Shown piece by piece: positions 8,274-27,959 of a stretch of 64,000 nt of DNA. The stretch lies in NCBI RefSeq assembly GCF_002117445.1, contig NZ_CP019937.1, positions 140,001-204,000 on the forward strand. The letters are read 5' to 3'. The stretch comes from Ketogulonicigenium robustum. GTDB lineage: Bacteria; Pseudomonadota; Alphaproteobacteria; Rhodobacterales; Rhodobacteraceae. The notes under the pieces were generated by a model that saw only the letters and a program-made list of their open reading frames with translations, was not told the DNA's origin and made no database searches. Both the position numbers and the translations under genes were made by a program. Numbering within the stretch: position 1 is the stretch's first letter; every line of letters begins with the position of its first letter.

Positions 8274-8277
8274 TCTG

Positions 8278-9165
8278 ATGGATGTTTTGAAAAAACTCTG
8301 GCAGAACAAAAAGGTTCTGATCGGTTTGGCGATTGTCGGGACGCTGGTCTTGATGGCCATTTTCGCGCCCTTGCTGACCGAATACAGCCCGACCCGCCGT
8401 GTCGGGCGTCCGCACCAGCCGCCATCATGGGATCACATCATGGGAACCACCCGTCTGGGCCATGATGTGTTTACGCGATTCCTTTACGGCGCGCGGACAT
8501 CGCTGATGGTGGGTCTTGGTGCCGGCATTCTGATTACCGTCATCGGGACCTTTTTGGGGATTCTGGCAGGCTATAAGGGCGGCTGGATTGACGAAGTCAT
8601 CAACTTCTTCACCAATATGGTGCTGGTCGTGCCAAACCTGCCGCTGCTGTTGGTGCTGGCTGCGTTTATCGGGCAAGTGAACCCGTGGGTTATCGCACTG
8701 ATCTTGGGCTTTACGTCATGGGCGTGGGGGGTGCGGGTTACCCGTGCCCAGACCCTGTCGATCCGCGAGCGTGACTTTGTGAAGTCTGCCGAGATGTTGG
8801 GCGAACCCGCTTGGCGCATCATGTTGTTCGAGATTTTCCCGAACCTGATTTCCATCGTCGGCATCAACTTCATCGGCAGCGTGATTTTCGCCGTCATCAC
8901 CGAAGCCACGCTGGAGTTTTTGGGCCTTGGCGACCCTAATACCGTGTCGTGGGGCATCATGCTTTATAACGCGCAAAACGCCTCGGCGCTGGTTGTCGGC
9001 GCGTGGTGGGATCTGCTGGCACCCTGCTTTGGCTTGGCGGTGCTGGGCCTTGGGTTGGCGCTGATCAACTTTGCCATCGACGAGATGGCTAACCCGCGGC
9101 TGCGGACCGGCACCATTCTGGGCCGCTGGTTCGGCCTTGTCCGCGCAGGCGAGGGCAAGCTATGA
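8278..9165 (+). CDS. ABC transporter permease, DppC type
   Basis: 295 aa. The N-terminal OppC-type region (MDVLKKLWQNKKVLIG, then a transmembrane helix) is followed by DPT-like HIMGTTRLGHDVFTRFLYGARTSL, diagnostic of DppC/OppC permeases. The EAA loop is KSAEMLGEPAWRIMLFEIFPN. It partners the preceding DppB-type protein. Its stop overlaps the next ATPase start by 4 nt (ATGA). Confidence 0.93.
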   Translation: MDVLKKLWQNKKVLIGLAIVGTLVLMAIFAPLLTEYSPTRRVGRPHQPPSWDHIMGTTRLGHDVFTRFLYGARTSLMVGLGAGILITVIGTFLGILAGYKGGWIDEVINFFTNMVLVVPNLPLLLVLAAFIGQVNPWVIALILGFTSWAWGVRVTRAQTLSIRERDFVKSAEMLGEPAWRIMLFEIFPNLISIVGINFIGSVIFAVITEATLEFLGLGDPNTVSWGIMLYNAQNASALVVGAWWDLLAPCFGLAVLGLGLALINFAIDEMANPRLRTGTILGRWFGLVRAGEGKL

Positions 9166-15211: not shown

Positions 15212-16189
15212 ATGAAATGCGCGATTCACGCCACATTCGGCGCCCCTGTCGATGTTATGACACTGGGTGACAGCCCGCTGCCCGAACCCGCTGCAGGGCA
15301 GGTGCGGATCAAGACGATCCTCAGCCCCATTCACAACCACGATTTGTGGACGGTGCGCGGCAACTATGGCTACAAGCCGACCCTGCCCGCCATCGGCGGC
15401 ACCGAGGCGGTCGGCCTTGTCGATGCGCTGGGCGAGGGTGTCAGCGGCGTGAGTGTCGGTCAGCGCGTGGCGGTGGCCTCGGTTCACGGCACATGGGCGG
15501 AATACTTTATTGCACCTGCCGCTGGACTGATCCCCGTGCCCGAGGCGATTCCCGACGAAGTTGCGGCCCAGCTGATCGCCATGCCCTTCAGCGCGATCAG
15601 CTTGCTTGAGCAGCTGAATGTCAACGCTGGCGACTGGATCATCCAGAACACAGCGAACGGCGCAGTCGGCAAGGCGCTGGCCATGCTGGCCACCGCGCGC
15701 GGGGTGAATGTTATCAACTTGGTCCGCCGCGCTGACGCTATTGACGAGTTGGCCGCGCTAGGCATCGGCAATGCGATCTCGACCGATGCAGAAGGCTGGA
15801 AAGACGCCGTGCGGGCGCTGGTGGGTGATGCATCGCTGCGCGCAGCCGTTGATTCGGTCGGCGGCACTGCCAGTGGCGATTTGATGAACCTGCTGGGCGT
15901 CGGCGGCACGCTGTTTGTCTTTGGCACCATGACCAACGGCCCGATGCAAATCTCGACCGGCGACGTGATTTTCAAACAAGCCACCGTTCGCGGCTTCTGG
16001 GGTGCGGTTGTCAGCGCCGAAATGGCCCCCGAAAAACGCCGAGAATTGTTCACAGAGCTGCTGCGCGCGGTTGCAACCGGCGGTGTCGTTCTGCCTGTTG
16101 GCGGCATCTTTGGGTTGGAAGGCATGACCGACGCCATGCGCGCCGCCGAGGCTGCCGGTAAAACCGGTAAAATCCTGCTACGCCCCTAA
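15212..16189 (+). CDS. MDR-superfamily zinc-independent oxidoreductase (quinone/enoyl reductase type)
   Basis: 325 aa. It has a GroES-like N-terminal fold with HDLWTVRGNYGYKP and GGTEAVG, and a nucleotide-binding region with NTANGAVGKALAMLA near residue 148. The structural zinc cysteines of alcohol dehydrogenases are absent, which places it with quinone oxidoreductase/MECR-like reductases. The start at 15212 is the first ATG after the regulator stop and gives a canonical N-terminus; a longer frame running back into nemR is rejected. Co-transcription with a NemR-like sensor suggests NAD(P)H-dependent reduction of a reactive carbonyl, quinone or enal. The substrate is inferred only. Confidence 0.88.
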   Translation: MKCAIHATFGAPVDVMTLGDSPLPEPAAGQVRIKTILSPIHNHDLWTVRGNYGYKPTLPAIGGTEAVGLVDALGEGVSGVSVGQRVAVASVHGTWAEYFIAPAAGLIPVPEAIPDEVAAQLIAMPFSAISLLEQLNVNAGDWIIQNTANGAVGKALAMLATARGVNVINLVRRADAIDELAALGIGNAISTDAEGWKDAVRALVGDASLRAAVDSVGGTASGDLMNLLGVGGTLFVFGTMTNGPMQISTGDVIFKQATVRGFWGAVVSAEMAPEKRRELFTELLRAVATGGVVLPVGGIFGLEGMTDAMRAAEAAGKTGKILLRP

Positions 16190-16243: not shown

Positions 16244-16294
16244 AAAGAATAAGGGCCTAGTCATTTCTGACTAAGCCCTTGAATTCTTTGGTGA
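16244..16294. repeat. left attachment-site repeat (att)
   Basis: A 51-bp direct repeat identical to 27839-27889. It contains the terminator hairpin of tRNA-Lys and the last bases of the tRNA. Beyond it, 16295-16333 is a decayed or mimicked copy of the tRNA T-arm and anticodon arm with several differences from the intact gene. This is expected where an element-derived partial tRNA remains after integration. Confidence 0.88.
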
Positions 16295-16350
16295 TCCGGC
16301 GGGACGAACCTAGGACCTAGTGATTAAAAGTCTCATGGTCCGTAGTTTTC

Positions 16351-16444: not shown

Positions 16445-16450
16445 TTTTCG

Positions 16451-16491
16451 GTGGTAGCCCCGTGGTAGCCCGTGGTAGCCCCGTGGTAGCC
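16451..16491 (+). repeat. four tandem GTGGTAGCC repeats (putative integrase arm sites)
   Basis: GTGGTAGCC occurs at 16451, 16462, 16472 and 16483, spaced 10-11 bp, about one helical turn. The same unit recurs twice beside the right att. Placement just inside both att sites and upstream of int fits arm-type binding sites of a P4-like integrase. Confidence 0.75.
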
Positions 16492-16512
16492 AGCGCGAAA
16501 AAGGGGTAGGAT

Positions 16513-17787
16513 ATGGCGGACGCAATCAAGATCACTAAGCGGGCTGTTGATGCACTGAAGGCGAAAGGCGCGCGCTATACGGTTTGGGATACCGAACTAG
16601 CAGGGTTCGGCCTGCGCGTCGGTGCGAGTGGTAGCAAGTCCTATGTGCTCAAATATCGCGTTGGTGGTGGGCGTGCTGCGCGCGTGCGCTGGGGGGTGAT
16701 TGGCCAGCACGGCGCACTGACCCCCGATCAAGCCCGAGAGATCGCCCAGCGCTGGGCGTCTGATGTGGCCGCTGGCGGCGATCCTGCTGGGGATCGTTTG
16801 GAAAAGCGTAAAAGCCCGACCGTTGCTGAATTGCTGGCCGAGTATCAGGCCAGCCATGTGGAGGCTAAGAACAAGGGCAGCACTGCAAGGAATGTGGCGC
16901 TTCTGATTAACGGGCTGATCCTTCCTGCGCTGGGCCGTCTCAAAGTGGCCGATGTTACAACGGCTGATGTGGCGCGCTTTCATTCGGCTAATGCGAAAAC
17001 CCCATATCAGGCGAACCGCGCCCGCTCTGTCTTGGCAAAGGCATTTGGGCTGGCTGAAACGTGGGGATACCGCGAACGAAACAGCAATCCCTGTGCCGAT
17101 GTGGAAAAGTATCCAGAAAAGGCCCGTGATCGGTTCCTTTCCCCCGCCGAGTTCGCTGCGCTTGGTGATGTGCTGGCGCGTGCCGAGGCAGGTGAACGGT
17201 TGCCCTTTGAAAAGGCGGGTAAGGTTCGGATGGTTGCCATTAGCCAGTCAGCGATTGCTGCTGTTCGCCTCATGATTTTCACGGGTGCCCGCGCCTACAG
17301 TGAGATTTTAAGCCTGCGCTGGGAATGGATCGACTGGCACGCAGGCCGTGCAAACCTGCCTGACAGCAAGACAGGGAAAAAACCTCTCATGCTTCCACCG
17401 GCTGCCCTTGAAGTGCTGCGTGGCTTGGACATGCCGCAAGACGGGCGTGGCTTCGTCATACGGGGTGGAAATTACACCGATCCAGAGACGCCACTAGTTA
17501 ATTTGAAAGACCCTTGGAACGCGATCCGCATGGCTGCTGGCCTGCCGGATGTGCGCCCCCATGACCTGCGCCATTCGTTTGCCTCTGTGATGGTAGCCGG
17601 TGGCGCTTCGCTGCCCCTTATTGGGGCCTTGCTTGGACATAGTGATGTGCGGACCACGGCCCGCTATGCGCACCTTGCCACCGACCCGCTGAAGGCTGCC
17701 GCCGATCACGTTGGCGGGGTTCTCGCCTCGCACCTGAAAGGCCCTGATGGCGGCGCTGAAATTGTGCCGCTGCACCGCAAGGGATAG
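16513..17787 (+). CDS. int: tyrosine-type site-specific integrase (P4 type)
   Basis: 424 aa. The N-terminal arm-binding/DUF4102-like domain (KITKRAVDALKA, then YTVWDTELAGFGLRVGASGSK) is followed by a SAM-like core-binding domain (about 105-200) and a catalytic domain. The catalytic set is Arg260 in FTGARAYSE, the HDLRH box His350-Arg353, His in LGHSDVRTTARYAH and nucleophile Tyr385. It has full length for P4-family integrases. The ATG has GGGGTAGG upstream. It should recombine the tRNA-Lys att sites that flank the element. It reads away from the left att into the island. Confidence 0.96.
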   Translation: MADAIKITKRAVDALKAKGARYTVWDTELAGFGLRVGASGSKSYVLKYRVGGGRAARVRWGVIGQHGALTPDQAREIAQRWASDVAAGGDPAGDRLEKRKSPTVAELLAEYQASHVEAKNKGSTARNVALLINGLILPALGRLKVADVTTADVARFHSANAKTPYQANRARSVLAKAFGLAETWGYRERNSNPCADVEKYPEKARDRFLSPAEFAALGDVLARAEAGERLPFEKAGKVRMVAISQSAIAAVRLMIFTGARAYSEILSLRWEWIDWHAGRANLPDSKTGKKPLMLPPAALEVLRGLDMPQDGRGFVIRGGNYTDPETPLVNLKDPWNAIRMAAGLPDVRPHDLRHSFASVMVAGGASLPLIGALLGHSDVRTTARYAHLATDPLKAAADHVGGVLASHLKGPDGGAEIVPLHRKG

Positions 17788-17860: not shown

Positions 17861-17990
17861 AACTCTGTTACCTTGTTACCTCGGGCAAAAATGTCAGATA
17901 ACATACTGATATTTATAAAATAAATAGGTAACGAAATTTCTGTTACCTCGGTAACAAAAAGTCTGTTTTTGTTACCTGTTACCGTCCAAC
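17861..17990. repeat. GTTACC/GGTAAC iteron cluster A (putative origin half)
   Basis: Seven copies of the hexamer are present: GTTACC at 17867, 17875, 17942, 17971 and 17978, and GGTAAC at 17927 and 17950. Two GTTACC copies, a 46-bp spacer with an AT-rich right half (17881-17926) and an inverted GGTAAC form the core. The 17788-18292 gap has no convincing gene otherwise. The arrangement resembles replication iterons with an unwinding element; a regulator operator is the alternative. Confidence 0.7.
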
Positions 17991-18292
17991 GCGCGCCTAA
18001 GTGCAAGTAAATGCAAGGGTGCGCAATGCGGCACCTTGGTGGGTTTGTGTCAAAAACACCTTCAAAACAGGTCAAGTTCGCCAGTTTTTCGTCAAACTTC
18101 AAACACAACATATAGTGGCCCTGCCTTTATATGCGCTCTTGTGTATTGCTGCCGTAGTGGGCTAGTTTGCCGTTTGTTCTATTCACGGATAACGTCATAT
18201 TTACGCGGCTAGGGAGACCCCCGAAAACAGGTATTCGCACCTTGCTGCCGCACTTCTTGCTTGTGCGAATTCCCATGCGAAAGGGGGCCGGA

Positions 18293-18874
18293 ATGGCGAA
18301 AGACGAATGTGAGAATAACGAAGGAATAGGCGGCGTGATGGAACGCGCACGTCTTAGATGGAACAAGAACGAAGGGGTGGCGGGCGTGTTCCAACGCATG
18401 CAACTTGCGCGCAGTCCTTTCGATTTGAACCCTGAAATTTTCGCTGGATTTCGAAAGATTATGGCGGACGCTCTTGAGGCAGTAAGGGCAATGATGCAGC
18501 GTCTGACGCAGCAATTGAAAGGTTGCGTTCCCAACTGGCTGCAAAAAGCAAAGCCCCGCCGTGGCCGTCCTGTCGGAACCAGCTATGACGATGCCCGCGC
18601 GCCGTTCTTGGCCGAGGCGATTGCGCTGATAAAAAACAAGGTGGCGAAGGGGGCTTATGCTGCCGCGCGTATGATTGTCGAAGCTGTGGGCTGGGCGCTA
18701 ACCTTGACCGATGCGATTGCGCTTGGAAAAGTGCCTGGTGCTTCTTGCAAGGCAGCGGAAGATGCACTTGCGCGATACATCGTGGCCCATATCAAGAAAA
18801 TAAATGCCGATCAGGAACGCGCGAATGCCCAGCGCGTCCGGTGTTCTGCCGCTAAAGCGCTGATAGCCACTTGA
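18293..18874 (+). CDS. island protein of unknown function with AT-hook-like motif
   Basis: 193 aa from the ATG at 18293, chosen because AAGGGGG lies 6 nt upstream; the frame is open back to 18167, but that extension looks non-coding. The family is not recognised. Visible features are a basic KPRRGRPVGT motif at residues 87-96 (the GRP core of an AT-hook), an alpha-helical C-terminal half rich in Ala and Lys, and few hydrophobic stretches. It lies directly after the GTTACC repeat cluster, so a DNA-binding role at that site is possible but unproven. A hairpin follows the stop. Confidence 0.7.
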   Translation: MAKDECENNEGIGGVMERARLRWNKNEGVAGVFQRMQLARSPFDLNPEIFAGFRKIMADALEAVRAMMQRLTQQLKGCVPNWLQKAKPRRGRPVGTSYDDARAPFLAEAIALIKNKVAKGAYAAARMIVEAVGWALTLTDAIALGKVPGASCKAAEDALARYIVAHIKKINADQERANAQRVRCSAAKALIAT

Positions 18875-18956
18875 TGCAACGGCTGCGCCTCACATGGCGT
18901 GGGTGGCGTGGTATCAGGTTGCATAAGCGATTTTGTTAGCTGAGCGTCAGTCATGT

Positions 18957-18983
18957 GGCACCGGCCCAGATTGAGCCGGTGCC
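18957..18983. terminator. perfect hairpin between convergent genes
   Basis: GGCACCGGC and GCCGGTGCC form a 9-bp perfect stem between the unknown protein and the convergent PepSY gene. It probably serves both directions. Confidence 0.65.
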
Positions 18984-18991
18984 TTCCTTGG

Positions 18992-20380
18992 CTATATGCG
19001 TGCGGGTTTCGCCCTAACCGCCTGCCAGATCATATCCAGCACGATCATCCCCAACAGGGTTATGCCCGTTAGGGGGAACAGCACTCCGCCGATCCCCAGA
19101 ATGACGAATAGCCCGATAAAGACCTTGCGGTCTGATGGTAAGGGCGGGACGCCGAGGCTGCCCGAGGGGCGGCGCTTCCACCACATCACGGCGGCAGACA
19201 CCGCCAGCAGCACGATGCCGACACAGACGGCTAACAGCAGCAACTGGTTCAATAGGCCAAAGGTCTGGCCCATATGCGTGTTGATCCCGAACTCTAGCCA
19301 TTTGCCCAAGGGGCCATAGTCGGCATAGCTCATATCCAGCAGCGCATCGCCCGTGTATTGGTCGAGGTGCACGACGCGTTGCTGGCTAAGGTCATCGGGA
19401 TAGACAGACCCCGAATAGACGCCAGATGACCCATTGGGTAGGGCCACGGCATAGCCGCGATGCAGCGCCATTTCGTCGAAAATCTGCGTCGCAATGTCGA
19501 TGCCGATAGTGGGCATTTCCATCATGGGCGGCACCGACTCGGGGATCTGCGCTTGTTCCAGTGACCAAGAGGTCTTGGCGATATGGTCAAGGTGATCTTC
19601 GGACATAGGCACGTTGATGCGCAGGCCGTTGGGATAGCCGTAATTGCTGCCATTGGCCCATTCGTTCACCTTGGCCCCCCAGACGGATGACCACGGCATC
19701 CCTGTCAGCGCAAGGAACACGATAAAGAACCCGATGATGATGCCCGTTACCGCATGGGTGTCGCGCCAGAATACACGGCGCTTGGGTTCGCCGCGCACGG
19801 TGATGACGCCCCCTTTCTGCCCGCGCATCGCCCCACGCGGCCACCATAGATAGACGCCCGTCAACACCATGAGGATCGCAAACCCGCCCACGATTTCGAT
19901 GATCTTGCGCGGGTTCGGGCCGAAATAGCGGAACGAATGCAGATAGCGCACTGTCCACGCAAAGGTGCTGCGATCCGGTCGAACCTCTAGCACCTCGCCG
20001 GTGTATTGGTTGACATAGACGGCCATGTTGCTGCCGGTTTCGGGCTTGATTGTCACCTCGGTCGATTGAGTGTCGCTGATGGGGTCAGTGAATTTGACCG
20101 CTGTGCCCGCCTGCGCGCCCAGCGCGGCGTCGATGATCTGGGACGGGGAAAGGCGCTGTCCCTCAATCGGAGTGACCTGCATGAAGTTCGCGTGGACGAT
20201 ATTGTCCACATCTTCGCGGAACAGGTAGATCGCACCGGTTACGGCCAGCGTGATCATAAAGGGCAGGATGATCAGCCCCGCATAAAAGTGCCAGCGCCAT
20301 ACAGCGCGGTAGAGATTGGCGGCCTTTGCGCGGCGCGCAGCAGCCTGCGGGGACGTGTCCCCGTTGGTTACGGTTGTCAT
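18992..20380 (-). CDS. PepSY-domain inner-membrane protein (PiuB-like)
   Basis: 462 aa. An N-terminal transmembrane helix with WRWHFYAGLIILPFMITLAVTGAIYLF is followed by a periplasmic PepSY domain, a second helix near FAILMVLTGVYLWWP, a third after FWRDTHAVTGIIIGFFIVFLALTG and further C-terminal helices. Conserved His residues in WHFYAG, HSFRYFG and DTHAV fit the PepSY-associated helix family, some members of which act as ferric or cupric reductases linked to TonB receptors. It probably forms an operon with the DUF2946-like gene upstream. It looks like cargo of the island, perhaps for metal acquisition. Confidence 0.88.
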   Translation of the reverse strand: MTTVTNGDTSPQAAARRAKAANLYRAVWRWHFYAGLIILPFMITLAVTGAIYLFREDVDNIVHANFMQVTPIEGQRLSPSQIIDAALGAQAGTAVKFTDPISDTQSTEVTIKPETGSNMAVYVNQYTGEVLEVRPDRSTFAWTVRYLHSFRYFGPNPRKIIEIVGGFAILMVLTGVYLWWPRGAMRGQKGGVITVRGEPKRRVFWRDTHAVTGIIIGFFIVFLALTGMPWSSVWGAKVNEWANGSNYGYPNGLRINVPMSEDHLDHIAKTSWSLEQAQIPESVPPMMEMPTIGIDIATQIFDEMALHRGYAVALPNGSSGVYSGSVYPDDLSQQRVVHLDQYTGDALLDMSYADYGPLGKWLEFGINTHMGQTFGLLNQLLLLAVCVGIVLLAVSAAVMWWKRRPSGSLGVPPLPSDRKVFIGLFVILGIGGVLFPLTGITLLGMIVLDMIWQAVRAKPARI

Positions 20381-20415
20381 AATGGTATCCGTCTAAAGGT
20401 TTCAGATGAAAGGCT

Positions 20416-20820
20416 TTAGGCGGTTGCAGGTGGCCCCGTGGACGGCGGCAGGCCGGTCGATGCGGCCGCGCTGAGGGTGGTTGAGGCGATGAAATGCGCC
20501 TGCGTGGGCGCAGGTTTGCGGGGCAGACTGATCTGCACAGTTTCAGGCGCGTCGAATGGCGCTTGGGCCGCCGCCCAATAGCAGTGCGCCTGATCGGATG
20601 ACGTGCCATCGTCGGCGCTATCGTCAATCGGCTGCATGGTAACGGGGTCAAAGGCCATTTCGACCATCCCGCCCCCGCCGGTGCAGATCACTAGAATGAT
20701 CGCGCCATTCGCCGCGCGCGCGGGCATCACCCCAGAGGCCACCAGAGACACCGCCGCAAAGGGCAGCAGCATGGCCCAAAGCGCAATCAAGCGCAGGTAA
20801 TGCAGCGGCGTTCGTCTCAT
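20416..20820 (-). CDS. DUF2946-like small exported/membrane protein
   Basis: 134 aa from the ATG at 20820; the frame is open to 20856, so the start is uncertain. An N-terminal hydrophobic helix ends at VMPARAA, a plausible signal-peptide cleavage. It is followed by AIILVICTGGGG, which resembles the ICTG segment of DUF2946 proteins, and a later HCYW. DUF2946 proteins are often encoded near TonB receptors, PepSY proteins and copper genes. It lies 35 bp upstream of the PepSY gene on the same strand, suggesting one metal-related transcript. Its function is unknown. Confidence 0.65.
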   Translation of the reverse strand: MRRTPLHYLRLIALWAMLLPFAAVSLVASGVMPARAANGAIILVICTGGGGMVEMAFDPVTMQPIDDSADDGTSSDQAHCYWAAAQAPFDAPETVQISLPRKPAPTQAHFIASTTLSAAASTGLPPSTGPPATA

Positions 20821-20955
20821 GCGCTGGGCACTAGACCAATGCGGTCTGATCGGCAACTATGTTTGTGGGGTGGTGAAGTTGTGAGGGTCCGCTATGCGGG
20901 CGAAGCGGTCATTGCCAGTTCTTGCCGTGCGCAATGCAAATGATAGGGTAAAACG

Positions 20956-21504
20956 ATGAATGATCCTTACCGCCTGCCTGAACATTTCGAGACAGCCCGC
21001 TTCCGCCTTCGCCGTGTAAATGTCGATGACGCGCAGAGTATCTTCGATAGCTACGCCACTGATGCGGATGTTACCCGTTATCTGAGCTGGACGCCGCACC
21101 ATAGCGTGACGGACACGGTCACCTTTTTGGAATTTGCGGCGTTGGAATGGGATCAAGGAAAAGGTTTCCCCTTGGTTGCATTCGATCTCCAGAAACCTGC
21201 AGAAATATTGGGGATGTTTTATCCTCAGCTAAGCGGTCATCGGGTGAGTTACGGTTACGTCTTGCGATCTTCCGCTTGGGGCAAAGGTTGCGCATCCGAG
21301 GTAATGCATTGGCTCGTGGACCATGCTCTATCACATCCCAGCATTTACAGGGCAGAAGCATTCTGTGACGTGGAGAATCCAGCCTCTGCCCGCGTCATGG
21401 AGAAAGCAGGCATGGAGCGTGAGGGCATCCTTAGGCGCTATTTCACGCACCCTAACATTTCCGAATCTCCTCGCGATTGCATCATCTACTCCAAGGTCCG
21501 CTAA
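20956..21504 (+). CDS. GNAT-family acetyltransferase, RimJ/RimL type
   Basis: 182 aa. ETARFRLRRVNVDDAQSIFDSYATDADVTRYLSW is the typical RimJ/RimL start. The acetyl-CoA motif is YVLRSSAWGKGCASEVM, followed by AFCDVENPASARVMEKAGM, where the NPASARVMEKAG box is diagnostic of the ribosomal-protein acetyltransferase-like group. The substrate could be a protein N-terminus or a small molecule. It sits alone between the metal cargo and the immunity region of the island. Confidence 0.88.
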   Translation: MNDPYRLPEHFETARFRLRRVNVDDAQSIFDSYATDADVTRYLSWTPHHSVTDTVTFLEFAALEWDQGKGFPLVAFDLQKPAEILGMFYPQLSGHRVSYGYVLRSSAWGKGCASEVMHWLVDHALSHPSIYRAEAFCDVENPASARVMEKAGMEREGILRRYFTHPNISESPRDCIIYSKVR

Positions 21505-21533
21505 GGGCTCTTTTCGTCTGGGGTCGTAAGCCG

Positions 21534-21782
21534 CTAGTCAGCCTCGCCCCCTCGCAGGGCCACCCCTGCGCCTGATGCGGCTTCGCCGCTTTCGAGGAAA
21601 TCCACACCTGCGGTTTCGAGCGCTGCTTTAATTGCGCCGAGATTGTTGGCGTTAGGTGCGCGCTGCCCTTTCTCGAAAGATACAATCGTATTTCGCGACA
21701 CATTTGCGGCTCTCGCAAGGCTGGCCTGATCCATTTCTACAAGCGCCCGTGCTGCGCGGCATTGTGCGGGTGTAATTGGCAT
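21534..21782 (-). CDS. XRE-family repressor of the island
   Basis: 82 aa from the ATG at 21782, which has AAGGTTGG upstream; an ATG three codons earlier is less likely. The helix-turn-helix has QCRAARALVEMDQASLARAANVS and NTIVSFEKGQRAPNANN, a Cro/CI-type fold covering almost the whole protein. It diverges from the small-protein genes at 21872 across a region full of palindromes. By position and size it is the likely immunity or copy-number regulator. No peptidase or dimerisation domain is visible. Confidence 0.85.
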   Translation of the reverse strand: MPITPAQCRAARALVEMDQASLARAANVSRNTIVSFEKGQRAPNANNLGAIKAALETAGVDFLESGEAASGAGVALRGGEAD

Positions 21783-21793
21783 GAAGACCAACC

Positions 21794-21841
21794 TTGTGCT
21801 TTATGTTTGACATAATGCCCTGAATTGGGCATTTTGCACAA
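21794..21841. promoter_or_regulatory. nested palindromic operators of the XRE repressor
   Basis: Three dyads occupy the 89-bp divergent gap. TTATGT-TTG-ACATAA (21801-21815) is perfect. AATGCCC-TGAATT-GGGCATT (21814-21833) follows. An outer TTGTGC...GCACAA pair (21794-21799 and 21836-21841) encloses both. They lie between the repressor and the operon starting at 21872. Confidence 0.7.
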
Positions 21842-21871
21842 CATAACACTAAGCGCCTGATTGGAGCAACA

Positions 21872-22312
21872 ATGCCGAACCCCCATATTCCGGCAGCCGC
21901 TACCGGCTTGCCTATCGAAACCCTGTCCCGTCGCGCGCTGGTCGCGGGGCTGCCTGCTTTGGTGATGGCCGCACTGCCTGCGGCGCTGGATGCCGCGCCT
22001 GCGCCCGATCCTATGGTTGCGCTAGTCGCCCGCTGGGGTCGCGCACGGGCGCACTGGCGCGCCGCTGCGGCAGCAGATTTAGACGGCAACTTTGAAACCC
22101 GTGCCTGCAAATTCTGGGAACGGCAGGAATACGCAATCCAAGCGCTGATCGAGGCCACCCCCATTCGGACGGTCGAGGGCCTTGGGGCGCTCTGTCACTT
22201 CCTTTTCGCGGGCAACAACAATTTCGAGAATGACCCGTGGCCGGACGTGCCGCGCTGGGCGCTGGTCAAGGTGCGCGCGTGGGCTGCCAGCCAGATCGGG
22301 GGCGCAGCATGA
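21872..22312 (+). CDS. small island protein with Tat-like N-terminus
   Basis: 146 aa, family not recognised. The N-terminus has a twin-arginine-like SRRALVAGLPALVMAALPA segment (residues 19-37) ending in Ala-rich sequence, so export or membrane anchoring is possible. The remainder is Ala/Trp/Arg-rich and helical, with ETRACKFWERQEYAIQALIEA. GGAGC precedes the ATG. Its stop overlaps the next start as ATGA. The next protein has a similar N-terminal plan, so the two may be paralogous partners. Confidence 0.72.
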   Translation: MPNPHIPAAATGLPIETLSRRALVAGLPALVMAALPAALDAAPAPDPMVALVARWGRARAHWRAAAAADLDGNFETRACKFWERQEYAIQALIEATPIRTVEGLGALCHFLFAGNNNFENDPWPDVPRWALVKVRAWAASQIGGAA

Positions 22313-22713
22313 ACCGGCGCGAATTGATGCTTTCAGTCCCCGCTGTAGCGCTGGGGGCGATCCTACCCGCGCAAGGGGACGCGGCGGGCGCTGCACCGCA
22401 TGAGGCGTGTCAGGTGCTGCAATCGGAAACGCCGGTTGGACGTGCATTCTTGGGCTGGTCGAACCTGCGCGATCAGATCAACAGCCCCGCGTTCAGCGGC
22501 GTATCAGAGGCGGGCTTTAACCTGATCGTGTCACGGTTAGATGCGGACGCCACCGAACTGCTGGCAATCCCTTGCCAGACCCCGCGCGATTTTATCCTGA
22601 AGGTGATTGCCGTCACCGATTGGGGCGGGGTGGCGCTGCCTGATGAAACCCGCGCACCGGAACTGTGGGCCGAAGCGCGGGCTTTGGTGAACTGGGCGTA
22701 TAGAATTATATAG
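22309..22713 (+). CDS. second small island protein with Tat-like N-terminus
   Basis: 134 aa from the ATG that overlaps the preceding stop by 4 nt; a longer in-frame reading from 22237 runs inside the upstream gene and is rejected. It begins MNRRELMLSVPAVALGAILP, a twin-arginine-like signal, followed by GDAAGAAP as a possible cleavage region. The rest is unrecognised, with two cysteines (EACQVL and IPCQTPRDF). Like its neighbour it ends with a Trp-containing helix. Its function is unknown. Confidence 0.72.
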   Translation: MNRRELMLSVPAVALGAILPAQGDAAGAAPHEACQVLQSETPVGRAFLGWSNLRDQINSPAFSGVSEAGFNLIVSRLDADATELLAIPCQTPRDFILKVIAVTDWGGVALPDETRAPELWAEARALVNWAYRII

Positions 22714-22860
22714 ATTTTTCAACTGGATATGCGGTGCGTAATTATTCCCGATTGTGCGCCATTTATTCCCGAAAGACATGTGGCCCCCCGAAACTCATTT
22801 TTGGACTGATGCAACTGCCTGAATGCTTTGGGCAGCCATTTGATAAAATGAGGTGACTAA

Positions 22861-23088
22861 ATGCCTATCCCCTATACGACCGACAAACTTCCCTCCGAAC
22901 TGATGCTGAACCGCGATGAGGTCCACGCACATTTCGGCCTCTCGCGCCGCTTCCTCGAAATCGCCGCCGTGCGCGGTGATGGCCCCGCGATGGTCAAGAT
23001 TGGCCGTTCGGTGCGCTACCGCGTGGCCGATGTGCGAGAGTGGATCGAGGCCCGCCGCGTCCTGTCTACCTCGCAAAAGGTGGCCTAA
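22861..23088 (+). CDS. AlpA-like helix-turn-helix regulator / excisionase
   Basis: 75 aa, one MerR/HTH_17-type domain: LMLNRDEVHAHFGLSRRFLEIAAV, then a wing with GPAMVKIGRSVRYRVADVREWIEARR. This is the pattern of AlpA and excisionase proteins of P4-like elements, which bind near att sites or activate int and replication genes. It starts a compact run that leads to the primase and helicase genes, with 1 nt between its stop and the next start. Confidence 0.85.
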   Translation: MPIPYTTDKLPSELMLNRDEVHAHFGLSRRFLEIAAVRGDGPAMVKIGRSVRYRVADVREWIEARRVLSTSQKVA

Positions 23089-23089
23089 C

Positions 23090-23488
23090 ATGATCACGGA
23101 TAAGAAACTGACGTGCCGCCTGCTGATGGCCTTTGCACAAGAGGCCGAAGAACTGGGACTGTTTGCCTCCGAGGCGCTGGACGCGGCCTTGCTGCGCGGC
23201 GGTGGGGCGCTGGGCGAGGATGACGCGCCGACCTACGCGCGGGATATAGGGCTGGCTATCGGTGGCGCTGCCAGTGGCCTCGCAGCGCGTATGCGTTTTG
23301 AACTGTTGGCCCCCGCTGATGATGTGACCCCGCACAAAGGCGTGCTGACCCGCGAAATCGCAAGCCTTGTGGCAGAGGCCGAGCGCCTCGGGCAATTCGC
23401 GGTTGCCTCCCTCTACGATGATCTGCTGCGCGCCAATGAGGCCGAGGGCTACGCAGAAACGGCTTCCTACGCCCAAGCGATCGGCTGA
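23090..23488 (+). CDS. island protein with internal duplication
   Basis: 132 aa, family not recognised. Two related segments of about 45 residues follow each other: the first contains EAEELGLFASEALDAALLR and ends TYARDIG, the second contains EAERLGQFAVASLYDDLLR and ends SYAQAIG. The protein is acidic and predicted all-helical. The start is the ATG one base after the AlpA-like stop. A longer upstream frame overlapping that gene is rejected. A scaffold or protein-protein adaptor role is a guess. Confidence 0.75.
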   Translation: MITDKKLTCRLLMAFAQEAEELGLFASEALDAALLRGGGALGEDDAPTYARDIGLAIGGAASGLAARMRFELLAPADDVTPHKGVLTREIASLVAEAERLGQFAVASLYDDLLRANEAEGYAETASYAQAIG

Positions 23489-23547
23489 GCGGCGCAAGGC
23501 ATGTTGAAGCACCTTGCGGCCCGCCTGCGCTTGCTGGGTGCGCTGTA

Positions 23548-23766
23548 GTGGAAGGCTGGGATGGCAAGAGCGTGAAAGCCCACGTTGAACTGGTGCGTTC
23601 CGAAGCGTGGCAAGCCAGTTCAGATATTTTCGACCTGCAATGCACACAAGACGAACACCGCGCCGAGATCGACGCGCTTGAAACCGAAGTGGACGCGCTG
23701 AAGCGCGAACTGTGGGCGCTGCAACAGATTGTTGCGGCCCTCACTGCAAAAGGAAATCAAACATGA
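23548..23766 (+). CDS. small coiled-coil island protein
   Basis: 72 aa, with GTG as the likely start (a second in-frame GTG lies 24 nt downstream). The C-terminal half, EHRAEIDALETEVDALKRELWALQQIVAAL, shows heptad spacing of Leu/Ile/Val and is a clear coiled coil, about four heptads. It overlaps the start of the Toprim protein by 4 nt, so co-translation is likely. It may dimerise or tether a replication protein. The family is not recognised. Confidence 0.65.
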   Translation: MEGWDGKSVKAHVELVRSEAWQASSDIFDLQCTQDEHRAEIDALETEVDALKRELWALQQIVAALTAKGNQT

Positions 23767-24662
23767 CTGAAGCCGAACGTGTCACGCGGGCACTGAATGG
23801 CGAATGGCGGGGCAACAACGGCCTTGCGCCGTGCCCGATTTGCCAACCTGAAGGGCGGCGCGATCAGCGGGCCTTGTCTCTGTCGGATAGCGCGGGGCGC
23901 TTGCTGTGCCACTGCCACAAGAGCGGCTGCGCCGTCCTGTCGGAATTGCAGGTGCGCGGCCTGATTGATGGCAAAGGCGCGCCGAGCGCCCCGCCTGATC
24001 CCGCTGCCGAGGCCCGCCGCCGTGCAGAGGAAAAGCGCCGCGATGCCCGCCGCCGTGAAAGCGCCCGCACTCTGTTCGCTGAGGGCGTGTCTTGCTTTCT
24101 GACGCCCGCGCAAACCTATCTGGAAAGCCGTGGGCTGACCGGCATGCACTTCAATCGGCTGCGGTCCACGCTGCGCTATCACCCCAGCGTCTTGCATAGC
24201 CCCAGCGGCCTCCACCTGCCTGCCATGCTGGCGCAAATCCGTGGCCCGAAGGGCGAGGCGCTAGGCATCCACCGCACGTTCTTGAAGCCGGACGGCAGCG
24301 GCAAGGCTGATGTGGAACCGGCCAAGATGATGCTGGGGCCGTCCTCGGGCGGCGCGGTGCGTTTTGGCCCCGATAACCGCGTGATCGCGCTGGCCGAAGG
24401 GATTGAAACCGCCCTGTCTGTCTCTCGTTCTTCGCGGATGACCGTTTGGGCCACCTTGTCCACTTCGGGCCTCAAAGGCTTGATCCTGCCGCCCGCGCCT
24501 GTCGCTGAGGTGGTTATCATCGCTGCCGATCACGATGATGCCGGATTGAGCGCCGCTGAGATCGTGGCGGGCCGTCTGGAAGCCGAAGGGCGCGCGGTGT
24601 CGATCATCCACCCCCAGAAACAAGGCACGGACTTTAACGACCTGCTGCGCGGTGACGCATGA
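23763..24662 (+). CDS. zinc-ribbon/Toprim primase-like protein
   Basis: 299 aa. An N-terminal CHC2-like zinc ribbon has CPIC at residues 24-27 and CHCHKSGC at 49-56. An Arg/Glu-rich helical linker follows (about 80-115). A C-terminal Toprim domain has the acidic motifs ALAEGIETAL and IIAADHDDAG. This is the layout of satellite and plasmid primases. AAGGA precedes the ATG at 23763; the open frame begins earlier inside the coiled-coil gene and is not used. It overlaps the DUF927 gene by 4 nt, so together they supply primase and helicase functions that P4 alpha carries in one protein. Confidence 0.9.
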   Translation: MTEAERVTRALNGEWRGNNGLAPCPICQPEGRRDQRALSLSDSAGRLLCHCHKSGCAVLSELQVRGLIDGKGAPSAPPDPAAEARRRAEEKRRDARRRESARTLFAEGVSCFLTPAQTYLESRGLTGMHFNRLRSTLRYHPSVLHSPSGLHLPAMLAQIRGPKGEALGIHRTFLKPDGSGKADVEPAKMMLGPSSGGAVRFGPDNRVIALAEGIETALSVSRSSRMTVWATLSTSGLKGLILPPAPVAEVVIIAADHDDAGLSAAEIVAGRLEAEGRAVSIIHPQKQGTDFNDLLRGDA

Positions 24663-26530
24663 GCGGTGAGGATGTAATCAAGGCCCAAGTGGCTAAGGCT
24701 ACGGCAGAGGCCGAAGCCAAAAAGACCGGCGCTGCGCAGGACGGGAAGGCCCAGCGCGCCAAGCGGAAACCCCACTTCCCGTTCAAGGTAGAAGCTGGTC
24801 AGACGTGGAAAGAGGTGGAAACGGAAGCACCGGACGGCACCCTTAAAAAGGGCTGGCAGGCGTTCGGGTCTGAACTGAATGTCTTGGCGCTGTCCCGTAG
24901 CGCCGATGGCGAGGATTGGGGCCTTCAGGTTGAAGTGATCGACCGTGACGGCGCGGCCCATATCTGGGCGATGCCGCAATCGCTGCATGCAGGGTCGGGC
25001 GATGCGATCATTGGCGAACTGCTGCGCTTGGGCTGGAAGCCCTTCACCACGATTGGCCGCAAGTGGCGCGACTACCTGCGCGAATACCTGATGGGGGCCG
25101 AACCGGAAAAGCGGGTGCGCTGTGTCCCCAAGATCGGCTGGCATGGTGAAGTGTTCGTGTTCCCTGATGAGGCGATCAGCGGTGCCGATGAGGGCGAGGC
25201 GGTGATCTTGCAGGCGGGCGAGCGGATTGAACATGCCCTGAATGTCTCGGGCGATCTGGCCGCGTGGCAGGCCGAGGTTGCTGCGAATGTCGTGGGCAAT
25301 TCGCGTTTGCTTCTGGCAACCTCTGCCGCTTTCGCTGCCTCCCTCTTGGCGCTGACGGGCGAGGATGGCGGCGGCTTCCACTTTCGCGGTGCGTCGTCCT
25401 CGGGCAAATCGACCGCGCTGGCCGTGGCTGGTTCGGTCTGGGGCGGTGGCGGCACGCGCGGCTATATCCAGTCTTGGCGCGCCACGGATAACGGTCTGGA
25501 AGCCCTGTCCGCCATGCACAATGATAGTTGCCTCTGTCTGGATGAGTTGAGCCAGATCGACAGCAAGGCGGCGGGTGCTGCGGCCTATATGCTGGGCAAC
25601 GGTGTTGGCAAGGCCCGCGCTGGGCGCGAGGGACAGGCGCGCAAGGCACATGAATGGCGGCTGATCTTTCTCTCTAACGGTGAAGTGGGCCTCTCGGATA
25701 AGATCAAGGAAAGCGGGGGCCGGATTGCGGCGGGTATGGAAGTGCGGGTGATCGACCTGCGCGCCGATGCAGGCGCGGGCATGGGCTTGTTTGAGGACAC
25801 CCACGGCGCTGCCGATCCCGCGCAATTCTCGCAACGCCTGAAGGGCGCGGCCAGCCGTCACTACGGCATCGCTGCACGGACGTTCATTCGCCGCGTGGCG
25901 GCTGATCTGCCTGCCGTGCGGGATACGGTGGCCGGTGCGCGCAAGGGGTTTCTGGCGGGCGCGCTGCCTGCGGGGGCCGATGGTCAGGTGCGGCGCGTGG
26001 CAGATCGTTTTGCTCTGGTGGCCGCTGCTGGCGAACTGGCGACTGTCATGGGCGTAACCGGTTGGCCCGTTGGGGCCGCTGCCGATGCGGCCATGCGGTG
26101 CTTCAAGGATTGGCTGATCGAGCGCGGCGGCATTGGGGCCAGCGAAGTGACCGACGCCAAGGCGCGCATCCGGCGGGAAATCGAAATCAACGGCCATTCC
26201 CGCTTTCTGCCGTGGTATCCCGACCCGCGCACGGTGATCCGCACCAACGCGCTGGGCTATGTCCGGCGCAGTGATAATGACCAACCCGACGCCGCGCCGA
26301 TTTACTATCTGCACAAGTCCGGCGTGGATGAGGTGTTGGCCGGTCTGGATCGCAAGTCGGTGCTGGAAGGGCTGGCCGATGAGGGGGTTATCATTCGGCA
26401 TGAGGTCACGGAAAAGGGTGCAAAGGTGCTGGCCCCGTCCAAGCCCTTCAAGGTGCCCAGCGAAAAGACGGTGGTGCGCCTCTACCAGATCGACCTAGAG
26501 GCGCTGATGAGCGGGGCGGCACATGGCTGA
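24659..26530 (+). CDS. DUF927-domain replicative helicase-like ATPase
   Basis: 623 aa. The N-terminal 60 residues are charged, then a DUF927 region includes TIGRKWRDYLREYLMG and KIGWHGEVFVFPDEAI. Walker A is GASSSGKST (Lys250) and Walker B-like is CLCLDELSQID. A C-terminal part has a small winged-helix-like segment (SGVDEVLAGLDRKSVLEGL). DUF927 proteins are superfamily-3/AAA-type helicases paired with primases in mobile elements. Together with the Toprim gene it should initiate replication of the excised island. An equally long open frame on the opposite strand is a codon-bias shadow. Confidence 0.9.
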   Translation: MSGEDVIKAQVAKATAEAEAKKTGAAQDGKAQRAKRKPHFPFKVEAGQTWKEVETEAPDGTLKKGWQAFGSELNVLALSRSADGEDWGLQVEVIDRDGAAHIWAMPQSLHAGSGDAIIGELLRLGWKPFTTIGRKWRDYLREYLMGAEPEKRVRCVPKIGWHGEVFVFPDEAISGADEGEAVILQAGERIEHALNVSGDLAAWQAEVAANVVGNSRLLLATSAAFAASLLALTGEDGGGFHFRGASSSGKSTALAVAGSVWGGGGTRGYIQSWRATDNGLEALSAMHNDSCLCLDELSQIDSKAAGAAAYMLGNGVGKARAGREGQARKAHEWRLIFLSNGEVGLSDKIKESGGRIAAGMEVRVIDLRADAGAGMGLFEDTHGAADPAQFSQRLKGAASRHYGIAARTFIRRVAADLPAVRDTVAGARKGFLAGALPAGADGQVRRVADRFALVAAAGELATVMGVTGWPVGAAADAAMRCFKDWLIERGGIGASEVTDAKARIRREIEINGHSRFLPWYPDPRTVIRTNALGYVRRSDNDQPDAAPIYYLHKSGVDEVLAGLDRKSVLEGLADEGVIIRHEVTEKGAKVLAPSKPFKVPSEKTVVRLYQIDLEALMSGAAHG

Positions 26531-26741
26531 TGGGAAACCTGATTGGGCGGGTCGCATGTGGCAGGGCTTCGGCCCAGCCCCCAGCGCCGGAGATGAGGAC
26601 AAGGCAACGCAAGCCGATCTGAAGGGATATGATCTTGCCGCCGATCTAGAGGCCGAACGGGCTGCAATCATGGAATATGATGGGGGCTTGTCCCGTAGAC
26701 TGGCAGAGAGGAAAGCGCGGCAGGATATAAGGGGGCCTTAG
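26523..26741 (+). CDS. small island protein after the helicase
   Basis: 72 aa, overlapping the helicase stop by 8 nt, so probably translationally coupled. It is acidic at the N-terminus (MADGKPDWAGRMWQGFG) and charged and helical at the C-terminus (LEAERAAIMEYDGGLSRRLAERKARQDI). The family is not recognised. Genes in this position often encode helicase loaders or copy-control proteins, but nothing here proves that. Confidence 0.65.
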   Translation: MADGKPDWAGRMWQGFGPAPSAGDEDKATQADLKGYDLAADLEAERAAIMEYDGGLSRRLAERKARQDIRGP

Positions 26742-27144
26742 CCTGTTCCCCCGCGCCCCAGCATGGGCGCATATCCGTCGCGTTTTTGGGGGCCTATCCG
26801 GCGGGCGATCCGGCAGCGCAGCTTGCGGCCACGAACAAGATTGATGAGGGGCGGCGCTTGGGTGCCGCCCTTCCGCTTTGGGCAGATGATGCAGCGCCCC
26901 GCGCGGCGGCGTGGGCTTGTGTGACGGGTTAAGATGCAGGTGGCGGCCTGTTGGGTTAGCGCTGGCGCAGATCGAGGCAGACGGGGGGGCGCTTTAGAAA
27001 TTATGCGCAGCCCTGCGGGACCGGCGGGGGGAGCTTCCTTTTTGCACGGACTGAATTTAGAAAAAAAGACCACTTATCAGATAGTTATGCCTGTAAAAAT
27101 CAGCGTGGGTCCTTCCTAGGGTTCGCCTGCATGCGGGTAATTCG

Positions 27145-27164
27145 CGCCCCGCTCGGGGCGTTTT
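27145..27164 (+). terminator. terminator of the island replication operon
   Basis: CGCCCC-GCTC-GGGGCG followed by TTTTC, about 400 nt after the last gene of the primase/helicase run. Confidence 0.6.
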
Positions 27165-27458
27165 CTGCTGAATTTTTCCATGAAAAGAAGGGGTTGGTGT
27201 TGTTGTTCTATCCCCCAAGGGGGGGTACCTCAAAGTCTGCAACCTCGGCCAGCGCAGGCCCGCGTCCCCCTCATGTGGGGATTTTTTTCTCAAGGCGTTG
27301 GAATTTCGGGCGGGACGATCCGAAACGGGGCGCTTTTTGCGCGTATAGCCCCCCGAAAGCGGCCCAATTTGCGCGCCCAAAAGGGCCGGATTTGGGAGAT
27401 TTTTGAGCCGCGACGGCCGCGAAAATCAAGAATGTCTATATTTATCAATGGCTTGACA

Positions 27459-27567
27459 GGTAACAGGCATTTCCATTTTTGTTACCTGTTTTGTTACCTG
27501 CTGGAAGGCATAAAATACATATAAAACAATATGTTATATATATAGGTAACAAGGTAACGGAGGTAAC
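27459..27567. repeat. GTTACC/GGTAAC iteron cluster B (putative second origin half)
   Basis: Six copies of the hexamer are present: GGTAAC at 27459, 27545, 27553 and 27562, and GTTACC at 27481 and 27493. As in cluster A, two GTTACC copies are followed by exactly 46 bp of spacer (27499-27544, strongly AT-rich) and then GGTAAC in inverted orientation. The AT-rich core includes ATGTTATATATATA. Confidence 0.7.
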
Positions 27568-27611: not shown

Positions 27612-27815
27612 GTTGGCCGCGCCGCCACCTCTCGGCATTCCGCATGGCCGGTAGCCTTTGACTGGTTCGCCCAAGCTGCCCCAACTATTCACGGCAGAGA
27701 CAGACCCCCAAAAAAATTCGACAAGAACCCCTTCCGCACCTCCACGGTGCGCGGTGTTGTTATTCTTCCCCGCGCGCCACCTCACACCGCCCAGCGCTGC
27801 GCGAAATTTGTTTTG

Positions 27816-27835
27816 GTGGTAGCCCCGTGGTAGCC
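27816..27835 (+). repeat. two GTGGTAGCC repeats by the right att
   Basis: Copies at 27816 and 27827, spaced 11 bp, matching the first pair of the four-copy array upstream of int, including the flanking bases. They are three bases from the 51-bp att repeat. Likely integrase arm sites on the opposite end. Confidence 0.72.
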
Positions 27836-27838
27836 AGT

Positions 27839-27889
27839 AAAGAATAAGGGCCTAGTCATTTCTGACTAAGCCCTTGAATTCTTTGGTGA
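27839..27889. repeat. right attachment-site repeat (att)
   Basis: 51 bp identical to 16244-16294. It overlaps the last six bases of the intact tRNA-Lys gene and includes the tRNA's own hairpin terminator (AAGGGC...GCCCTT type, 27845-27877). Confidence 0.88.
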
Positions 27890-27959
27890 GCCGGCTGGGG
27901 GTCGAACCCAGGACCTACTGATTAAAAGTCAGTTGCTCTACCAACTGAGCTACCGGCTC
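27884..27959 (-). tRNA. tRNA-Lys (TTT), integration target
   Basis: A 76-nt minus-strand cloverleaf with acceptor GAGCCGG/CCGGCTC, encoded CCA (27884-27886) and anticodon TTT at 27924-27926. The gene stays intact because the element supplies the 3'-terminal bases. Confidence 0.95.

Follow-up and report, generated by a model that had tools for sequence, protein, structure and literature searches.

Bacteriophage P4 is a model for two-site replication control in a satellite, and work by Tocchetti in 1998 and Magnoni in 2006 is said to have described it as 'two replicons'. In the annotated P4 record, crr adjoins attP downstream of the alpha gene and ori lies beyond the alpA-like gene; the distance between inverted paired iterons is 43 bp, both in ori and in each half of crr. 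According to excerpts of two papers, the origins of Staphylococcus aureus pathogenicity islands (SaPIs) lie directly downstream of rep, with the C-terminal domain of Rep reading the iterons (PMC7581432), and those of phage-inducible chromosomal islands (PICIs) consist of an AT-rich region 3′ of rep with one iteron set on either side (PMC6092414). Here we describe an 11.6-kb island integrated at a tRNA-Lys gene in a 64-kb stretch (the window) of the Ketogulonicigenium robustum genome (2,713,835 bases). This window island carries two clusters of GGTAAC repeats, c1 and c2, near its two ends. The repeat clusters are real, conserved and functionally interpretable: with a probability of roughly three in four, they are paired homologous replicator sites in inverted orientation, a PICI-type origin (c2) and an origin-like site (c1), working like ori and crr of P4.

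GGTAAC occurs 23 times in the window against 11.15 expected (standard deviation 3.38), a number reached in none of 100 shuffles. Thirteen of these copies fall into the two clusters, seven in c1 and six in c2 (Table 1). In c1, GTTACC at 17867 and 17875 is followed by a 46-bp gap and an inverted GGTAAC at 17927; in c2, GTTACC at 27481 and 27493 is followed by a gap of the same length and GGTAAC at 27545. Our recount in the window thus returned the hexamer numbers, coordinates and gap of the original prediction, and the enrichment over the genome that it had proposed as a check came out positive. GTTACC-N46-GGTAAC is found genome-wide only in c1 and c2 (backwards-read control pattern, 0), and GTTACC-N1-4-GTTACC at four places, all within the clusters (control, one forward and two reverse). 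The 46-bp cores are AT-rich (Table 1) in an island that as a whole is 41% AT. To call the clusters intergenic was also fair, as they are overlapped by short mechanical open reading frames (ORFs) only, two of them over window c2 and none otherwise supported.

Relatives were obtained by a pattern-based scan of a collection of genomes from 84,980 species with a two-row alignment of DUF927, the domain of the candidate initiator. The scan gave six islands (L046 to L051; 55–64% identity in the best segment), and seven were compared with the window island included; L048 and L024 (genome G223) denote a single contig, which was counted once. Their hosts are Thalassovita and Aliiroseovarius (Rhodobacterales) and four metagenome-assembled genomes labelled Rhodobacteraceae or Paracoccaceae. 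A search of 295 genomes of the host's own family found DUF927 relatives in 16, the K. robustum genome among them, and only one other exceeded 50% identity. Four relatives end at tRNA-Lys(ttt), like the window island, and two (L049 and L051) at tRNA-Arg(tct). Cluster c2 was found in all seven islands, and c1 in all five in which int is present and the region covered (window, L046, L047, L048 and L049). In L050, int is unmatched, the DUF927 match is truncated (residues 3–466) and c1 is absent; the contig of L051, where DUF927 is broken into three segments, starts just before alpA, so the c1 region lies outside it. Cluster c1 lies 80–96 bp past the int stop or match end in four of the five islands and 340 bp past it in L047, and the genes that follow are largely unrelated between islands (one weak match between L047 and L048, 30% over 95 aa). 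Cluster c2 lies downstream of DUF927, at 929 bp in the window and at 2.8–5.6 kb in four relatives.

These positions bear on the alternative that came with the original prediction, a repressor operon with shared operators, which we considered as operators of the AlpA or Xre repressor/activator controlling island genes. Both helix-turn-helix (HTH) proteins are conserved in the relatives, and inverted hexamers can serve as operators, but none of int, xre, alpA and toprim has a cluster at its start: c1 comes after int and ahead of the largely unrelated genes, and c2 faces att. Moreover, sigma-70-like sites are not above shuffles (2 versus 4.5), and at least six boxes spread across 105 bp around an AT-rich core would in our judgement be unusual for operators. 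This alternative is weak, and we regard it as very unlikely.

Box positions were scored with GTWAC as the box core, and c1 was reverse-complemented for comparison with c2. In c2 of the seven islands the offsets are 0, 19–21, 31–33, 83–86, 91–94 and 100–103; in c1 of four relatives (L046–L049) they are 0, 19–20, 41–42, 84, 92 and 100. The two clusters of these relatives are inverted copies of one layout of about 105 bp, with the third box shifted by 10 bp in all four. Centres of the boxes facing each other across the core are 51–53 bp apart in c2 of all seven islands, equal to 46 ± 2 bp between hexamers, and 42–43 bp apart in c1 of the four relatives; in window c1, whose left triplet lacks the inner box, the distance is therefore 53 bp. 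Thus, the equal 46-bp spacing of the original prediction holds true in the K. robustum genome, and its conservation in homologous islands was borne out for c2. As an invariant common to both clusters it was rejected, since c1 is 10 bp shorter in the relatives and equality is not a family rule. Gaps of about 36 and 33 bp had at first been read in L024; for c2 the seven-island comparison corrected this, as an extra box sits inside the core.

The middle base of the boxes varies between islands yet mostly matches within one island. At box 0 the two clusters agree in all five islands (A/A in the window, L046, L047 and L049, T/T in L048), and in the right-hand triplet they agree in all four relatives (ATT in both clusters of L046 and of L047, TTT in L048, AAA in L049); right-hand boxes of the window read AA in c1 and AAA in c2. 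The inner boxes agree in L047, L048 and L049. When c2 patterns were permuted among islands, right-hand agreement was kept in 4 of 120 orders, an arithmetic figure that ignores kinship (L046–L048 are close). One protein reading both clusters would be the simplest reading of this largely concerted change of box letters, and gene conversion may be an alternative source of it.

Conservation and concerted change also have to be set against the possibility that only c2 works as an origin and that c1 is an old inverted duplicate, a weak decoy or a copy-limiting handcuffing site. Such a history would fit the lost box and disturbed layout of window c1, the less AT-rich c1 cores in three of the four relatives that have both clusters, and the single cluster region seen in other DUF927 elements with a downstream cluster (10 of 12 compared). 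However, c1 is kept in all five islands with int, its box states mostly track those of c2, and a dead copy would be expected to drift, an argument that spares a copy-control role. We consider an origin function of c2 only to be unlikely.

The best candidate binder of the boxes is the DUF927 protein. In Foldseek, its model (pLDDT 83.3) matched Cch of SCCmec (5dgk, E 4.6e-20) and SaPIbov1 Rep (8tch, E 6.3e-19). The model aligned with Cch, its closest solved structure, at Z 30.8 (470 aligned, root-mean-square deviation (rmsd) 9.3, residues 42–614) and with SaPIbov1 Rep at Z 26.2 (460 aligned, rmsd 11.0, residues 35–620), the next structural match being MCM helicases at Z 13.7. The fold match spans the length of the protein, its winged-helix C-terminal domain included. 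A sequence search with DUF927 likewise found the Cch and SaPIbov1 Rep chains and no others at E 0.01 (SaPIbov1 Rep, E 1.5e-10), and the NCBIfam SCCmet_Cch1 hit is far under its cut-off (55.4 of 700 bits). Pfam, predicted fold and sequence all point to a self-loading initiator helicase of the DUF927/Rep type. SCCmec itself is a cassette with its own recombinase system, unlike the island. Aligned alone with VIA-align, the modelled C-terminal domain (residues 495–619) resembles SaPIbov1 Rep (Z 9.3, 102 aligned, rmsd 2.9) and Cch (Z 8.9, 89 aligned, rmsd 2.6), tied with 5vfx, the accessory winged-helix protein that binds oriT of pCW3 (Z 9.0, 89 aligned, rmsd 2.5). It is also the part that changes fastest: between the window and L046–L049 identity is 36–39% in this domain, 66–72% in the AAA part and 51–54% in the N-terminal part. 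The original prediction had named as initiator either the Toprim and DUF927 pair or a 193-aa AT-hook-like protein; the pair is retained, with the initiator-helicase fold predicted for DUF927, and the AT-hook-like protein is dropped, having no tblastn match in seven related loci where clusters are nevertheless present. As a binder, the Toprim protein was rejected as well, since Pfam shows no DNA-reading domain in it. In L046, an additional ORF (8263–8844) encodes the C-terminal domain of DUF927 on its own; this solo copy shares 95% identity over 111 aa with the domain in the island's own DUF927 and may be a competitor for the boxes or a duplication remnant.

The tie with 5vfx raises the question of whether the clusters could be a conjugation-type oriT, and NCBIfam gives TraI as a hit for the Toprim protein, far under the cut-off (56.7 of 929.85 bits). 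This hit is limited to profile positions 1658–1864 of 1960, though, no relaxase domain was found among the island proteins scanned, and the remainder of the DUF927 protein is by its predicted fold a helicase, which makes an oriT extremely improbable.

We return to paired replicator sites. In the mechanism that we infer, Int and AlpA would excise the island, and DUF927, acting like SaPIbov1 Rep and Cch as an initiator helicase that loads itself, would bind the GGTAAC boxes via its winged-helix C-terminal domain, assemble on the box sets of c2, melt the AT-rich core between the inverted sets and load as helicase. The Toprim protein would prime, and c1 would either assist through an interaction like that of P4 crr or fire as a second origin. 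That c1 and c2 are both replicator sites bound by DUF927 is probable; the division of labour in which c2 is ori and c1 the helper is slightly favoured. Two features make c2 the preferred main origin: like the origins of PICIs it follows the initiator gene, and in three of the four relatives with both clusters its core is richer in AT than that of c1. Like PICIs and SaPIs (SaPIbov1 rep-ori and Gram-negative PICIs), the island has int, an alpA-like gene, a primase and an initiator helicase, to which the DUF927 helicase fold would correspond, and in c2, downstream of the helicase gene, two iteron sets enclose an AT-rich core, the arrangement of PICI origins in the excerpt cited above. Unlike them, the island family has a second complete cluster beyond int, c2 does not adjoin the helicase gene, and no convincing packaging gene was found among the island proteins scanned.

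The likeness to P4 extends further. In both, iteron sites stand at two places in cis (for c1 and c2, by layout only), and the P4 iteron, GGTGAACA, differs from the island's GGTAACA by one inserted base. Inverted pairs enclose an AT-rich core at 43 bp in P4 and at 42–43 bp in c1 of the relatives; the crr box order left-left-right-right-left is that of c1; and the order alpA-like gene, primase/helicase, iteron site, attP, int is shared. On the other hand, P4 alpha combines a Zn ribbon, Toprim, D5_N, DUF5906 and Pox_D5, whereas in the island Toprim_3 and DUF927 are encoded by separate genes. P4 crr consists of two 120-bp direct repeats, which are absent from the island, where each cluster is single-copy, and c1 lies after int. 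The island looks built to work like P4 and is not a member of the P4 group, as its helicase type differs. Of the equivalence to ori and crr that the original prediction had drawn, two conserved iteron-bearing sites on an integrative element beside Toprim and DUF927 stand.

On the excised circle the order would be c2–attP–int–c1, with the clusters about 1.9 kb apart by coordinate arithmetic. Boxes that flank attP-int might be integrase arm-type or excisionase sites used in excision, and the two tRNA-Arg islands (L049 and L051) yielded no GGTAGCC repeat to take that role in their place. Yet the window island, L046, L047 and L048 each have a separate GGTAGCC repeat at both ends, no more than about 250 bp from att, much as the annotated arm repeats of P4 are near its att core; in L050 it is found at the tRNA end. 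Cluster c1, moreover, is about 1.5 kb from attL. We consider an arm-type or excisionase role of the boxes highly improbable.

More distant DUF927 loci (21 in total, 15 from the own-family search and six plasmid or phage records) were also inspected. In 12 of the 21 loci a hexamer cluster occurs in the 1 kb that follows DUF927, versus 247 of 2538 overlapping background windows, by a criterion carried over from the scan in which the clusters were first noticed and with two loci (L035 and L042) covering less than 1 kb downstream. The hexamers vary (GGGACA, GGTAAC, GGGAAC, GGACCA, GTCGGA and others), and L026, L041 and L045 have two adjacent cluster blocks. On a 7-kb Salmonella enterica plasmid record, ten GGTAAC boxes (L042:6368-6548) stand right after a DUF927 gene whose product is 35% identical to ours.

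Scanning IMG/VR for DUF927 gave no relative with a single-protein query and one with the two-row alignment (L052, 14.8 kb). It has int, a fused Toprim-DUF927 protein (DUF927 by Pfam, 43% identical) and one box cluster, of GGAACA at 1310–1411, in the c1 position after int. Thus, the c1 and c2 positions each occur singly in other elements, and the seven-island family has both. ORFs of this contig (L052:1-14776) were read by eye as portal, capsid, HNH, TerS and TerL, and it looks like a capsid-forming PICI. Searched by pattern, IMG/VR has 64 contigs with GTTACC-N44-48-GGTAAC-NN-GGTAAC, and 12 island proteins gave no tblastn match in these 64. With gaps of 26–56 the pattern was found in at least 120 contigs, compared with five for one control word of the same composition. 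DUF5906 is present in 10 of 30 ORFs neighbouring the box sets; these 30 were chosen from 59 candidates (25 of 38 de-duplicated, plus five dropped by de-duplication), and some of the ten are near-duplicates. In part, then, this build with GGTAAC is found next to primase-helicases of another kind. Among 59 distinct cores from 120 loci taken to be of this set, the centre distance is 32–40 bp in 11, 41–45 in 30, 46–50 in five, 51–56 in 10 and 57–62 in three. A period of 10.5 bp fits these distances no better than neighbouring periods do, and helical phasing of the boxes is only suggestive. These loci (L054–L209), at least 120 viral contigs with inverted GGTAAC sets, possibly represent a common origin type.

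Several observations weigh against paired replicator sites read by DUF927. L046, L047 and L048 are close relatives (their DUF927 proteins are 81–91% identical), so the five islands with c1 are not five independent tests. Window c1 fits the common layout badly (reverse-complemented offsets 0, 7, 27, 36, 50, 103 and 111), extra boxes occur in c1 of L046 (at 26 and 67), L047 (71) and L049 (7) and in c2 of L048, L049 and L051 (71), and two inner boxes of L046 disagree between the clusters. At the distances given above, c2 of the window and of four relatives is far from DUF927, compared with clusters beginning at most 100 bp past the DUF927 stop in 10 of the 12 distant loci. No distant second cluster of the same hexamer was seen in any of the 10 of these 12 loci that were compared (L033 and L044 were too weak), and a second site is therefore not a general need of this helicase type. 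As for the proposed binder, the Z of about 9 for the modelled C-terminal domain is modest, and Foldseek with this domain alone returned nothing below E 0.001. The right-hand boxes of L049 are window-like (GTAAC) although its C-terminal domain is only 36% identical to that of the window, so box type does not simply track overall domain identity. Finally, by analogy the P4 gene order would make c1 ori and c2 crr, the reverse of our assignment.

Table 1. Features of the island, in window coordinates.
Feature	Position	Strand	Basis
attL, copy of tRNA-Lys 3′ part and terminator	16244..16332	+	Direct repeats D1 (60 nt, 97%) and D3 (32 nt, 91%); 92% over 92 nt
Candidate arm-type integrase repeats (GTGGTAGCC), left end; different from GGTAAC	16446..16494	+	Repeat D2; L046, L047 and L048 too have GGTAGCC at both ends
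Tyrosine integrase with arm-DNA-binding domain	16513..17787	+	Pfam PF00589, PF13356
Cluster c1, 7 GGTAAC/GTTACC boxes, second origin-like site	17867..17983	.	Counts; kept in relatives
AT-rich core of c1, 46 bp, 76% AT	17881..17926	.	Composition
193-aa AT-hook-like ORF, not conserved	18293..18874	+	tblastn
Xre-type HTH repressor candidate	21534..21791	-	Pfam HTH_3; matched in 5/6 relatives
AlpA-like excisionase/regulator (HTH_17)	22861..23088	+	Matched in 6/6 relatives
Toprim_3 primase, possible start 23757	23712..24662	+	Pfam
DUF927 initiator-helicase candidate	24659..26530	+	Pfam PF06048, 1.5e-77; predicted fold of Cch, SaPIbov1 Rep
DUF927 winged-helix C-terminal domain, candidate iteron reader	26141..26515	+	Model pLDDT 90.7; Z 9.3 SaPIbov1 Rep, 8.9 Cch
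Cluster c2, 6 GGTAAC/GTTACC boxes, candidate main origin	27459..27567	.	Counts; kept in 7/7 islands
AT-rich core of c2, 46 bp, 78% AT	27499..27544	.	Composition
Candidate arm-type integrase repeats, right	27811..27838	+	Repeat search
attR, overlapping tRNA-Lys 3′ part	27839..27930	+	Direct repeat
tRNA-Lys (ttt), integration target	27884..27959	-	ARAGORN

The island is bounded by the direct repeat of attL and attR, which overlaps the 3′ part of tRNA-Lys(ttt) (Table 1). The same tRNA gene is present in a same-genus genome (G295), where int, alpA, toprim, DUF927 and the box cluster are all unmatched in a 20-kb stretch (19 kb on the 3′ side of the tRNA, 0.9 kb on the other). Nothing marks the island as the phage satellite that the original prediction had taken it for: among the island proteins scanned, which are not every ORF, the sole packaging hit was a weak match of the AlpA-like protein to a PHROG terminase small subunit (E 0.003), ranking below an excisionase as its best hit. 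A PepSY gene inside the island (18992–20856) has no other match in the K. robustum genome; its homologue in G295 adjoins sequence matching the left flank of attL (window 15745–16018), about 17 kb from the island-free tRNA-Lys, and the gene may be cargo, the product of a rearrangement or an old island remnant. A short ORF after DUF927 (26523–26741) has tblastn matches in L046, L047, L048, L049, L051 and L052 (37–71% identity over short stretches). In L046 (3604–6496), two integrase matches and two attL-like copies are arranged in tandem.

Among the papers listed by searches of the open-access literature, we found no report of a two-cluster DUF927 replicon; the new feature would be a PICI-type origin present twice, as a P4-like pair served by a DUF927 initiator. 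It is possible, and we offer it tentatively, that the inverted, co-evolving c1 and c2 flanking attP-int make the island a two-origin replicon, in which efficient replication requires a single DUF927 initiator to engage both sites, through looping or paired firing. If so, two different families of helicases, P4 alpha and DUF927, would each have acquired or retained a two-site logic, under a common spacing rule of about 42–43 or 51–53 bp (around four or five helical turns) between inverted boxes. A P4-like two-site layout is found here with a different helicase family, kept in five islands with differing neighbour genes and with box letters that largely vary together at both sites, and the role of a second site becomes testable in a new small replicon. 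More broadly, DUF927 loci would offer natural initiator-iteron pairs (GGTAAC, GTWAC variants, GGGAAC, GGGACA, GGACCA and others) from which a specificity code of the winged-helix domain may be worked out.

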